A stretch of DNA of 64,000 bases from Porphyrobacter sp. HT-58-2 (GTDB lineage Bacteria > Pseudomonadota > Alphaproteobacteria > Sphingomonadales > Sphingomonadaceae). Shown piece after piece: positions 40,060-43,642 of this stretch (its first letter is position 1; every line of letters starts with the position of its first letter). The position numbers and the translations under genes were made by a program. The notes beneath the pieces were generated by a model. It searched no databases. It was given only the letters and a program-made list of their open reading frames with translations, and was not told the DNA's origin. Location: assembly GCF_002952215.1 (NCBI RefSeq), contig NZ_CP022600.1:1612001-1676000 (forward strand), read 5' to 3'.

Positions 40060-40452
40060 TCAAACCATCAATATATTCATCACCGCCGTTGCAATCGGAC
40101 GGTTGCGATCATCCTGCCAGGCCTCGACCGTCACATTGGCGTTGCGGCGTCCCAGCCGGGTGATGCGCCCGACAGCAAAACTCGCGCGCGATTTGCCCGC
40201 CGCAAGATATTGCACCGTGATGTTGATCGGCTTCAGCAACGGATCGCGCCCAGCTGCCGTCAGCGCAGCGTGGAGCGCGGCGTAGCCGGCGGTCTCCAGC
40301 AGGCCGGCAGTGGCCCCGCCATGGAAATGCGCCGGGCGGCCTTCGACATTCGGCCCGAAATCGACCGAAACCACCGGCATTCCGGCCTCCTCGTCGCAGA
40401 TCGTGATCCCGAGCGAGCGGGCATAGGCAGGCAGTTCGAGCATCTCAGTCAT
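40060..40452 (-). CDS. PaaI-type hotdog thioesterase (second of a pair)
   Basis: This 130-residue single hotdog domain has the PaaI signature FHGGATAGLLETAGYAAL and a second strand pattern INITVQYLAAGKSRASF. Such enzymes hydrolyse aromatic or acyl-CoA thioesters. The start ATG at 40452 lies inside the end of the upstream thioesterase gene (8-base overlap). Catalytic residues differ between the two copies, so they may have different substrates or form a heteromer. Confidence 0.85.
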   Translation of the reverse strand: MTEMLELPAYARSLGITICDEEAGMPVVSVDFGPNVEGRPAHFHGGATAGLLETAGYAALHAALTAAGRDPLLKPINITVQYLAAGKSRASFAVGRITRLGRRNANVTVEAWQDDRNRPIATAVMNILMV

Positions 40453-40927
40453 CACCCAAGGCTGTGGCCAGAGCGGGGTTTTCCTTTCGCGGATCGGCGG
40501 CGATGGTCATGAACACGCCCGCGACATGGGCAACCGGATCCTCCGGGTTGCCATCATGGGCTATCCCCCGGACGAAGGCTGCGGAGCGGGTTGTGCGATA
40601 GCATTCCACCCGTCCGCGTACGCTGGCCCCTTCGCGCGCCGGGCGCTGGTAATCGACCCTGAGATCGAGCGTGGCAACCGGATTGAAAGTGCGGCTGGCC
40701 TGCCAGATTGCCATGCCGCTGGCCATGTCCATCAGGCTGATGATCGGCCCGGAGGCGAGCACGCCGCTCTTGCTGTCGCCGACCAGATCCTCGCGCCAGG
40801 GCAATTCCAGTTCGACCCAGTTTTCGCCCTGTTCGGTGAACCTCAGGCCAAGCCAGCCAGTGTGGCCGTGGCGGAAGAACCAACGTGATGCTTCGCGGGC
40901 ATCAAACCGGGCGGGGGGTGTGTTCAT
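40445..40927 (-). CDS. PaaI-type hotdog thioesterase (first of a pair)
   Basis: The 160-residue hotdog protein has GPIISLMDMASGMAIW, where Asp stands at the usual catalytic position, and ATLDLRVDYQRPAREGASV. The N-terminus (RWFFRHGHTGWLGLRF) is longer than in the partner. The start at 40927 excludes a spurious upstream extension. It heads a two-gene operon, divergent from the peptide operon across 127 bases. Confidence 0.85.
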   Translation of the reverse strand: MNTPPARFDAREASRWFFRHGHTGWLGLRFTEQGENWVELELPWREDLVGDSKSGVLASGPIISLMDMASGMAIWQASRTFNPVATLDLRVDYQRPAREGASVRGRVECYRTTRSAAFVRGIAHDGNPEDPVAHVAGVFMTIAADPRKENPALATALGDD

Positions 40928-40959
40928 GGGCCGGTGCATAGGGGCGGGCGCAGGCGGGT

Positions 40960-40965: not shown

Positions 40966-41054
40966 CATTTAATTTCGGGAGAGCGCAAGCCTGGGCCAGC
41001 ATCGACGGCGGCCGTCCGGCGTTGGGCCGACGCTGCCAATCCAAGGAGAGCATC

Positions 41055-41213
41055 ATGGATCTACCCCGTATCAGCCTTGACCAGATTCCCGGGCTTGATG
41101 ACGCACAGGCGCTGTTCGGCTCGGTGCTGCAGGCCGGTGGCCCGATCGACGACCGCATCGTGGACATCATGGTTTTCCTCTACGAAGTGCTGCCCCCGGC
41201 TCCGACGCTCTGA
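41055..41213 (+). CDS. 52-residue acidic peptide, first gene of an unrecognised operon
   Basis: A strong AAGGAGAG with 4-base spacing and an ATG at 41055 support this short gene. The product is Asp-rich (seven Asp, no Cys, His or Lys), starts MDLPRISLDQIPGLDD, has a central AGGP turn and a helical IDDRIVDIMVFLYEV, and ends LPPAPTL. It has no signal peptide and no known family. A tiny, well-translated peptide next to a cupin enzyme gene suggests a modification substrate or a small subunit. The next gene begins 20 bases later. Confidence 0.75.
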   Translation: MDLPRISLDQIPGLDDAQALFGSVLQAGGPIDDRIVDIMVFLYEVLPPAPTL

Positions 41214-41233
41214 GCGCACGGGAAGGCACGAGA

Positions 41234-42169
41234 ATGCAGGTCGATACGGCCATTGCATCGCTGCGGAGCCAGCGCGTTCCGCAGCCTCGCGTGGATGCCG
41301 CGCTGGCGCTCTGGCAGGAGCAGGAGCCTGCTGCCGGAGTGCTGGCTGATCTGGCGGCCTATGGCGCGGGCGCGGCCCTTGACGATCTGGCGGCGCTGTC
41401 CGCCGTAATAGTCGCGCCTCCCATGGCCGAAGCCCTCGTGCAGGGACTGATCGCGCCGTTGATGGAAGCCTTGGAGGCCGAGCCGCTGGCGCAGTTGCCA
41501 TTCGGCACCTCTGCCATGCCCGGCCTCGCCCGCATCCGGATGGCGCAGAGCGGCCGCGCGGCGCTGACATTGGCGGCCTTTGCGCCTCGCCCCGCAGCGC
41601 CCGCCCGGTCGGTGCTGTTCGAGGATGGCGAAGTGCACGAGATCGTGCTGGCGGGAGCGGCGCGCGCGGCGCTTTACCGGCTCACGGGGGAGGGCCTTGC
41701 CGAGACCCGGATTGATTGTCGCCCGGCAACCCGGATGATCCGCAAGGACGGACGCACCGCCCGCCATATCCTCGCCGTGACAAAGCCGCTGCTGGTGCTG
41801 CAACTGACCCGCGAGGCTGCCGACCCCGGCCCGGCACGCGAACACGCCTTGCCCGGCGGGGCATTGCTCAAGACCATCAGCGGATCGAAGCGCGCCAGCC
41901 AGCAAATGATGGCGCTTGCCGTGCTGGGCGCGCTGGAACACCGTCCGGCGCTGGCAGCGATGGAAGACCTTGCCTGCAACCTGTCCGCCGAACGTGACCT
42001 GAGGTGGGAGGCGCTGCGGCAGGTGCTGGGGCTCGATACGGCCGCGGGCATGGCACTGCTGGCCCGGCTGGCCGCGCATGATGGCGATGCGCTGGCCGGG
42101 CCTGCGGCGAAGCTGCGCCGCGATCTCCTCGCCGCGCAGCCTGCGCTTGTCATGCTGGAGCCTGCCTGA
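41234..42169 (+). CDS. Uncharacterised helical (HEAT-like) protein of the peptide operon
   Basis: The 311-residue Ala/Leu-rich cytosolic protein has no family I recognise. The middle is predicted beta-rich (RSVLFEDGEVHEIVLAG; RKDGRTARHILAVTKP). The C-terminal third (about 215-311) looks like short HEAT-like helical repeats (QQMMALAVLGALEHRPALAA; DLRWEALRQVLGLD). No catalytic motif is evident, so binding or scaffolding is the simplest guess. AAGG precedes the start. Its stop overlaps the next start by one base (TGATG). Confidence 0.8.
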   Translation: MQVDTAIASLRSQRVPQPRVDAALALWQEQEPAAGVLADLAAYGAGAALDDLAALSAVIVAPPMAEALVQGLIAPLMEALEAEPLAQLPFGTSAMPGLARIRMAQSGRAALTLAAFAPRPAAPARSVLFEDGEVHEIVLAGAARAALYRLTGEGLAETRIDCRPATRMIRKDGRTARHILAVTKPLLVLQLTREAADPGPAREHALPGGALLKTISGSKRASQQMMALAVLGALEHRPALAAMEDLACNLSAERDLRWEALRQVLGLDTAAGMALLARLAAHDGDALAGPAAKLRRDLLAAQPALVMLEPA

Positions 42170-43080
42170 TGCCGTTGGTGATCGACAATCCCTCCTCCGA
42201 CAGTTGTTCGCTGAAGGAATGCATCGCCGCGCTGGGCGACATCGGTTTCGACGCCGATGATCCCGCCAGCACCCGTGCAGCGGCCGACTGGCTGCGGCGG
42301 TTGGCCAATAACCGCACCTTCCTTGGTGACGTGCTGATCGACCGGCTGGCGGGGCGCGGCGGAGATGAAATCGCCAGCGGCTATGGCCCGCAGGCGATTG
42401 TGCTCAGTCGTCCGCGCGACAATTGCCCCGGTGCAGCGTTCCTGCGCGCAGCGATCTGGCCATCCCCGCGCGATCACGTGTTCCAGACCAGCGGCGCGGG
42501 CAGCTTTGTCTATGGCGCGCCGCATGATCACAATTTCGATTTTCTCACAGTCGGTTACTGCGGGCCGGGCTATGCCAGCGACTATTACGAGTATGATTAC
42601 GAGGCTGTCGCGGGCTATCCGGGCGAGGATGCGGGGCTGCGCTTTATCGAGCGTTCGGTGCTCTCGCCCGGCAAGCTGATGCTCTATCGCCGCCATGCCG
42701 ATGTTCACAGCCAGTTGCCGCCTGAACGGCTTTCGGTGTCGGTCAACGTGATGCGGCTCGATCCGGCGCAGGGGTGGCACGATCAGTATGGGTTCGATCT
42801 GAAGGCCGGCACGGTGACGCGCTGGCTCAACCCGCTCGCGGCCGAGGCCTTTCTGCGGGTCGCGGTGGCGAGCGGGGCGCCGGGCGCGTGGGACTATGCC
42901 GCGTGGGTCGGGACGCGCCATCCCAGCGAGCGGATGCGCCTTGCCAGTTTCGAGGCCCGGGCAGAGATGCTGGACAAGCCTGCCGAAGTCGACGCGCTGT
43001 GGCGCGCGGGGGAGCTGTCGGGCAGCCGGATGGTGGCAGGCGCGGCGCGGATGCGGCGGGGATTGCTCGAACAACCGTAA
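42169..43080 (+). CDS. Cupin-fold protein, probable metalloenzyme of the peptide operon
   Basis: The 303-residue protein has a helical N-terminus (about 1-90) and a central cupin-like domain. Motif 1 is YGAPHDHNFDFLTVGYCGPG (HxH, about residues 120-122). Motif 2 is LSPGKLMLYRRHADVHSQLP, with PxG-like and His positions. Tyr/Asp-rich YASDYYEYDYEAV lies between them. This pattern can hold a metal and fits an oxygenase or isomerase. Homologues may be mislabelled transposase, but I see no transposase motif. It is coupled to the helical protein gene. The stop is followed within 2 bases by the palindromic repeat. Confidence 0.8.
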   Translation: MPLVIDNPSSDSCSLKECIAALGDIGFDADDPASTRAAADWLRRLANNRTFLGDVLIDRLAGRGGDEIASGYGPQAIVLSRPRDNCPGAAFLRAAIWPSPRDHVFQTSGAGSFVYGAPHDHNFDFLTVGYCGPGYASDYYEYDYEAVAGYPGEDAGLRFIERSVLSPGKLMLYRRHADVHSQLPPERLSVSVNVMRLDPAQGWHDQYGFDLKAGTVTRWLNPLAAEAFLRVAVASGAPGAWDYAAWVGTRHPSERMRLASFEARAEMLDKPAEVDALWRAGELSGSRMVAGAARMRRGLLEQP

Positions 43081-43082
43081 CG

Positions 43083-43147
43083 CCGTTCGTGTCGAGCGCA
43101 GTCGAGACACATTGGACAAGCCTCTCGACTGCGCTCGAGGCGAACGG
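43083..43147 (+). repeat. Palindromic repeat copy 2, intergenic
   Basis: The arms 43083-43110 and 43121-43147 form a long imperfect hairpin with a 10-base loop. The left arm equals that of the copy inside uvrC over 28 bases, and the right arms differ at a few positions. It fills almost the whole gap between the cupin gene and the convergent ruvX and may act as a bidirectional terminator. Confidence 0.9.
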
Positions 43148-43156
43148 AGGTGGTGC

Positions 43157-43642
43157 CTAAAGCACGCCGCCTGCCAGCCGGTCGATCGCGCCTTGCAGGA
43201 TCACCGCTGCGGCATGGGCGTCGATCGCGGCGGCGCGTTTGGCGCGGCTCATGTCCATGCCGATCATCGCAGCCTCGGCGGCCTGCGTCGACCAGCGTTC
43301 GTCCCACAGCAGGACGGGCAGGGCAAAGGCTTCTGCCATATTGCGGGCATAGGCGCGGGAGGCTTGTGCGCGTGACCCCTCGCTGCCGTCCATGTTGCGC
43401 GGCAGGCCGAGCACGATCCCCTTGACGCTCCGGCTCTTGATCAGCGCCGCCAGCGTCTCGCGGTCGCGGCCCCATTTGCCGCGCTGGATCGTGGCGTTGT
43501 TGGTGGCAAAGCGCCATCCGGCATCGCACAGCGCTGTGCCGAGCGTCTTGGTGCCGAGATCAAGACCCAGCAACACGCCGCCTTCCCCCAGCGCCGCTCC
43601 GAAGCCGCGCGCGTCCTCGAAGATCAAGCGGCCGGTGTCCAC
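43157..43642 (-). CDS. ruvX: Holliday junction resolvase-like RuvX/YqgF
   Basis: This 161-residue RNase H-fold nuclease is needed in many bacteria for 16S rRNA 5' processing. Conserved motifs are LLGLDLGTKTLGTAL with the first acidic residue, KGIVLGLPRNMDGSEG, LLWDERWSTQAAE and the C-terminal IDAHAAAVILQG. The start is GTG at 43642, overlapping the end of the upstream DUF3089 gene by 19 bases. A TTG at 43627 is an alternative. Confidence 0.92.
   Translation of the reverse strand: MDTGRLIFEDARGFGAALGEGGVLLGLDLGTKTLGTALCDAGWRFATNNATIQRGKWGRDRETLAALIKSRSVKGIVLGLPRNMDGSEGSRAQASRAYARNMAEAFALPVLLWDERWSTQAAEAAMIGMDMSRAKRAAAIDAHAAAVILQGAIDRLAGGVL

Follow-up and report, generated by a model that had tools for sequence, protein, structure and literature searches.

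We have analyzed a 64,000-nucleotide stretch of DNA from Porphyrobacter sp. HT-58-2 (contig NZ_CP022600.1, positions 1,612,001 to 1,676,000, forward strand; hereafter the window), in which three tightly coupled open reading frames (ORFs) on the + strand, encoding a short peptide (41055-41213), a 311-residue partner protein (41234-42169) and a cupin (42169-43080), can be read directly. The genome carrying this operon is a single contig of 3.28 Mb. The peptide gene follows a ribosome-binding site, AAGGAGAG (41043-41050, + strand), at a spacing of 4 bases from its ATG (41055) and comprises 52 codons, with the stop TGA at 41211-41213. After a gap of 20 bases (41214-41233) the partner ORF runs from the ATG at 41234 through 311 codons to the TGA at 42167-42169, and the cupin ORF, 303 codons ending in TAA at 43078-43080, starts on base 42169, so that its ATG overlaps the partner stop by one base in TGATG. 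Cupin residues 118-123 form the motif PHDHNF. A previous sequence-only reading had described the peptide gene, its spacing, the gap, the overlap and the motif, all of which are confirmed here. We consider it probable that the operon is a system resembling those for ribosomally synthesized and post-translationally modified peptides (RiPPs), composed of a precursor peptide, an oxidizing cupin and a metal-dead twin of the cupin, and that it is without known description.

The 303-residue cupin is confidently modeled as a thiol-dioxygenase-type cupin fold (residues ~9-222) with HEAT-like C-terminal helices (224-301). Its best structural matches are thiol dioxygenases of the cysteine, mercaptopropionate and mercaptosuccinate type; matches in a viral structure library are weaker and mixed. 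Three histidines, H119 and H121 (codons H119-D120-H121, 42523-42531, + strand) and H180 (42706-42708, + strand), are invariant in 46/46 cupins (alignment A1) and in 25/25 members picked for diversity (alignment A3, the distant set), and are the putative ligands of a metal, probably iron. The fold points to the three-histidine thiol-dioxygenase type rather than to a 2-oxoglutarate hydroxylase, a less likely reading for which 2-oxoglutarate (JmjC) enzymes do occur in the Foldseek list of the cupin, at lower TM-scores. In thiol dioxygenases the third histidine is followed by a Ser-His-Tyr outer-sphere triad; at the triad position, assigned by motif register alone, the cupin reads S191-V-N193-V-M195, with N193 invariant in 25/25.

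The partner had been described from sequence as a helical, binding-like protein, a label that proved wrong because the model (mean predicted local distance difference test score 95.3) contains a long beta section forming a cupin barrel (~91-215), between N-terminal helices (1-82) and HEAT-like C-terminal helices (219-308). Its best structural matches are cupins, and it is confidently modeled as a cupin-fold protein of the thiol-dioxygenase type. The conserved metal motif is absent, the three conserved histidines occurring only in the cupin, and in the models the partner looks like a dead, metal-less counterpart of the enzyme with the same domain order. Alignments A1 and A2, of cupins and partners respectively, each combine the window sequence with those from 45 of 60 loci, partial, frame-broken or redundant loci having been omitted.

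None of the three proteins matched Pfam, NCBIfam or PADLOC up to an E value of 1, in keeping with the earlier statement that no family beyond the cupin fold could be named; the PADLOC-DB search covered models of anti-phage defence. Among the 25 diverse cupin members, HEAT_2 was matched in four (best E 9e-4), other Pfam matches were at E 0.03 or weaker (e.g. DUF693 in six, best 0.16), NCBIfam gave nothing at E 0.1, and no dioxygenase family was matched in any member at E <= 1 in Pfam or E <= 0.1 in NCBIfam. The PDB, queried by sequence with individual proteins and with a profile, returned nothing useful. A protein search detected at least 1358 cupin homologues at E <= 0.001; of 120 homologues among the matches listed, those with a source name are called 'hypothetical protein' or 'transposase', the latter in 12/120, including one 'Putative ISXo8 transposase'. 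The system was not recognized in literature mostly outside subscription journals, as judged from titles and abstract openings.

The peptide (41055-41213, + strand) divides into a leader-like region (residues 1-24), a C-terminal part and a variable tail (45-52). In an alignment of 67 distinct peptides, from which exact duplicates and two sequences with doubtful starts (L010 and L051) were dropped, P12, G22 and Y43 are invariant and L14 is Leu in 66/67, the N-terminal half having the consensus PKIDLxxLPxLxxxxGLFGS. Tyr43 is the sole invariant residue of the C-terminal half and is followed by Asp or Glu at residue 44 in 67/67; residue 33 is Asp in 65/67 and Glu in 2/67. Past residue 45 the tail ranges from nothing to proline runs, with Y[DE]..PP in 43/67 peptides. 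In five groups of relatives the ratio of nonsynonymous to synonymous differences (pN/pS) was similar in the peptide (0.22-0.37) and the cupin (0.23-0.33) and higher in the partner (0.51-0.55), ratios that are rough because a simple counting method was used and synonymous differences are high. Comparison of the coding sequences thus indicates that the peptide is under purifying selection as a protein, and both alignment and pN/pS bear out the expectation that its frame is conserved at the protein level.

Linkage of the three genes is strict within Erythrobacteraceae. The order peptide, partner, cupin was found in 58/58 assessable loci with a peptide profile that includes some of these peptides (two of the 60 loci, L043 and L052, could not be assessed where contigs end), and tblastn with just the window peptide as query (E <= 0.01) recovers the peptide in 48 of these 58. 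Among 100 relatives, the cupin is present in 33, the partner in 32 and the peptide in 34, in the same genomes except for two remnants: G008 still has the peptide but its cupin is reduced to a C-terminal fragment, whose match contributes to the 33, and all that G005 yields is a match to the peptide, interrupted by an internal stop. All 33 cupin-positive genomes belong to the own genus, which is represented by 61 genomes with the own one included, and 33/33 contain the peptide. Cupin homologues lacking the peptide, which the sequence-only reading had named as contrary evidence, were therefore encountered neither in the assessable loci nor in these relatives. The operon is flanked on the - strand by two 4HBT thioesterase genes (40060-40954) and ruvX (43157-43642), and in 60 loci, several of whose contigs end early, the cupin adjoins ruvX in 47 and the nearer thioesterase in 38. 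Of 28 own-genus genomes without the cupin, 19 were inspected at the ruvX-thioesterase junction (18 operon-less genomes among the 30 best ruvX matches, G005 and G008 having been added separately); the junction is empty in 18/19, where the matches lie 33-248 bp apart, while G005 carries its remnant. Taken together, the co-occurrence, the shared ruvX/thioesterase site and the empty junctions make the Erythrobacteraceae operon look like a unit that descends vertically and is lost in one piece. Named close loci belong to Porphyrobacter, Erythrobacter and Qipengyuania. Two complete units (L110 and L111) are present in G491, one beside thioesterases and the second between what we take to be yidC-like and engB-like genes.

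Outside this group the two halves of the peptide differ in conservation. At five loci (L084-L088) of Parasphingopyxis, Sphingosinicella and Sphingomonas the N-terminal half is kept and the C-terminal half consists of VGGxxC and a hydrophobic stretch. A profile of 25 Erythrobacteraceae peptides, searched against 4455 ORFs of 20 loci, gave six ORFs at E <= 1: all five of these peptides, at E 3e-6 to 2e-4 and over the N-terminal 23-28 residues only, and the L111 peptide of G491, a member of the own family, over its full length. RiPP precursors typically join a conserved leader to a core that is exchanged, and within sphingomonads the traits of such a precursor, a short peptide with a conserved leader and a diverging C-terminal half, are found at the sequence level. 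A profile of seven VGG-type peptides detected one peptide outside its own set, at L124 downstream of the cupin (E 1.3e-5), and in genome G666 the peptide gene lies downstream of the cupin. In Ferrimonas (L090) five tandem precursors, four of them nearly identical, are followed by the partner, the cupin, a Yip1 protein, HlyD and an ATP-binding cassette (ABC) ATPase. An Alteromonas stellipolaris plasmid encodes, in order, Yip1, HlyD, ABC and MacB proteins, two small ORFs at the precursor position, the partner, the cupin, an ABC protein and an ABC-2 permease. In G576 and G544 a small ORF with LTLEDAEFVSGGG adjoins the partner and cupin, with domains of a nonribosomal peptide synthetase (NRPS) nearby in G576. 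Motifs of the VGG, VSGGG or VSAG type and exporters are present in some relatives. Small ORFs at L107-L110, L123, L125, L127, L128, L129 and L134, picked by position and appearance, had no profile support, the best E values being 0.32 (L110) and 0.35 (L125).

We propose that the 52-residue peptide would be a ribosomally made precursor in which the N-terminal half serves as a recognition leader and the C-terminal half bears the changed residue. The cupin would be a non-heme-iron, O2-using enzyme that oxidizes the peptide, and the partner, perhaps together with the HEAT-like domains, would bind the leader and present the peptide. This proposal draws on gene order, co-inheritance, purifying selection, the predicted folds and the histidines present in the cupin and not in the partner, as well as on the leader kept and C-terminal half changed across sphingomonad lineages and the tandem precursors and export genes of Ferrimonas. 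Peptide as substrate, partner as presenter and the site of the reaction are what we infer from these observations. Modification may occur near Tyr43-Asp/Glu44, from conservation the best candidate site in the window peptide, and in the VGG-type peptides of other lineages perhaps at the Cys of VGGxxC; thiol oxidation suits the latter and not the window peptide, because the window peptide contains no Cys. The layout had earlier been likened to a peptide-modification system, with Asp or Pro hydroxylation as a conceivable reaction. Co-inheritance, selection and leader conservation support the layout, and the genetic linkage of a candidate modifying enzyme to the precursor is observed, while the reaction itself is only conjectured; hydroxylation of Asp is possible, given D or E at residue 33, and that of Pro loses ground, the LPPAPTL tail being variable or missing altogether.

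Comparison supports, short of proof, the reading of the operon as a peptide-modification system, which we would place as a new class inside a known kind, RiPP-like systems. We lean slightly towards a broader view, in which a new class of ribosomal peptides in Pseudomonadota has a short precursor oxidized jointly by a catalytic and a metal-dead cupin-HEAT pair, by chemistry that does not depend on cysteine. In Erythrobacteraceae the class would take the form of three genes passed on vertically as a unit, Tyr-Asp/Glu probably being the site, and in some marine gammaproteobacteria that of an exported cluster with tandem precursors. If so, the cupin homologues would point to a class of ribosomal peptides still to be explored, and a thiol-dioxygenase-type fold would act on a peptide aided by a dead relative. 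Members are easily overlooked because they are named hypothetical protein or transposase. With three genes in ~2 kb, the operon is movable to E. coli.

The alternative that deserves most attention, although we regard it as unlikely, is that the peptide, itself unmodified, serves a structural or regulatory role as a small subunit in a complex of cupin and pseudocupin that acts on another molecule. Several observations favor a subunit. Most of the peptide is conserved within Erythrobacteraceae, including Y43 in 67/67; each of the 34 positive relatives has one peptide match; and beside the window operon there is no exporter and no VGG, VSGGG or VSAG motif, both of which occur in some relatives. 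The Ferrimonas peptides were not found by the Erythrobacteraceae profile among the 4455 ORFs of 20 loci, and the Alteromonas small ORFs were matched by neither peptide profile; the latter result slightly lowered our confidence in a RiPP-like system and in the broader view of a new peptide class, and raised that in a subunit. A subunit is, on the other hand, difficult to reconcile with the five tandem copies beside export genes in Ferrimonas, with the exchange of the C-terminal half behind a conserved N-terminal half in sphingomonad lineages and with the position of the peptide downstream of the cupin in G666.

The best structural matches of the cupin and its three invariant histidines would suit a cupin that is a small-molecule thiol dioxygenase (of the cysteine, mercaptopropionate or mercaptosuccinate type) with an incidental peptide, which we judge improbable in view of the strict linkage of the cupin to peptide and partner, the lack of a dioxygenase family match in the 25 members, the residues S191, N193 and M195 where the triad would fall, the extra helical domain, and the precursor arrays and exporters linked to the cupin elsewhere. 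Even less credible is a translated leader or attenuator controlling the two larger genes, as the location of a short ORF 20 bases upstream of them might indicate; the ORF is under purifying selection on its amino acids, is tandem in Ferrimonas and is downstream in G666. That the cupin gene encodes a transposase, as the names of certain database entries would have it, can be practically dismissed: no transposase domain was matched in Pfam or NCBIfam, a cupin fold is modeled with high confidence instead, and the locus stays beside ruvX in most loci.

A RiPP-like system of this composition resembles several known ones in part. The window cupin has the fold and the HxH ... H pattern of three histidines in common with thiol dioxygenases (cysteine, 3-mercaptopropionate and mercaptosuccinate dioxygenase, plant cysteine oxidases, ADO), but differs in having no sequence family match, an extra helical C-terminal domain, no evident triad, and linkage to a metal-dead relative and to a peptide without Cys. 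Clusters for exported ribosomal peptides of the darobactin-like layout have HlyD/MacB-type ABC exporters. Likewise HlyD, an ABC ATPase and a MacB/FtsX permease stand beside the small ORFs in the Alteromonas relative, and Ferrimonas has HlyD and ABC; in contrast, the modification enzymes here would be cupins, not radical S-adenosylmethionine enzymes, and the window operon has no exporter. A parallel in organization is crocagin biosynthesis, in which, in the part of the account consulted, an iron oxygenase is aided by a duplicated protein that is metal-dead and brings in the precursor, all within few genes (PMC10070186). Precursor peptide, iron oxygenase and duplicate without a metal site would thus be common to both; however, CgnC needs alpha-ketoglutarate and the twins CgnB and CgnE resemble M29 aminopeptidases (PMC10070186), whereas both window proteins best match cupins. 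The folds are unrelated, and the dead protein of the window shares its fold with the enzyme. PbsQ and BpmG of biphenomycin-type RiPP clusters are cupin (JmjC) hydroxylases, acting on ornithine after a multinuclear non-heme iron-dependent oxidative enzyme and an arginase, and so provide a cupin-fold enzyme on a ribosomal precursor; no metal-dead cupin partner is described in the portion of that source considered (PMC12257519).

Of 398 genomes drawn from across the phylum, 15 gave a cupin hit, and 13 of these belong to the own family; the cupin was also detected in 3/289 genomes of the own class, and in 4/98 and 6/99 genomes of two further families, seed genomes included. Since 2/369 genomes of the gammaproteobacterial class sample carry it, one being the seed genome, the system is sporadic in gammaproteobacteria. 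Among plasmid records, from Alteromonas and Vibrio, the window cupin matched one and the L124 cupin matched two, and in viral contigs 41 stretches match the motif, of which 0/41 encode a relative. Loci of Sphingosinicella, Parasphingopyxis, Sphingomonas, Ferrimonas and the other gammaproteobacterial members showed none of the genes that neighbor the operon in the window.

At the window operon, a promoter scan gave no sigma-70-like site and one terminator-like site, on the opposite strand and within chance expectation, and Rfam gave no match. Directly 3' of the cupin stop, at 43091-43138, lies an inverted repeat, GTCGAGCGCAGTCGAGA ... TCTCGACTGCGCTCGA, which resembles a REP-type (repetitive extragenic palindromic) element.

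Further features were observed at distant loci. In the Alteromonas plasmid cluster (L141, 8905-10929) an ABC/ABC-2 permease pair directly follows the cupin, possibly for self-protection. At L128 (1965-2779, - strand) and L129 (7624-8214, + strand), 2-3 small ORFs that are paralogs of one another (MKLKLNKKKLKNLSKD...PQV-(A)GG...) occur close to NRPS genes and appear to form a double-glycine peptide family of their own; two of them had no NCBIfam match. In G842 a Cupin_8/JmjC-type protein is encoded upstream of the partner-cupin pair (L134, 3073-4020), and a 50-residue ORF on the opposite strand (L134, 4150-4302) contains VSIAGA. G598 has two pairs of a partner-like protein and a cupin close by (L123, 3940-7900), the first cupin being more divergent; the upstream proteins were unmatched by the partner profile. 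The label 'ISXo8 transposase' is given to MAB_0292/stnO, a protein of a streptonigrin-type pathway, in a table of PMC11206028, and this protein might be another misnamed cupin. The same name appears, in the extracts consulted, in the legend of an Alteromonas stellipolaris NRPS cluster and for Rhodopirellula genes.
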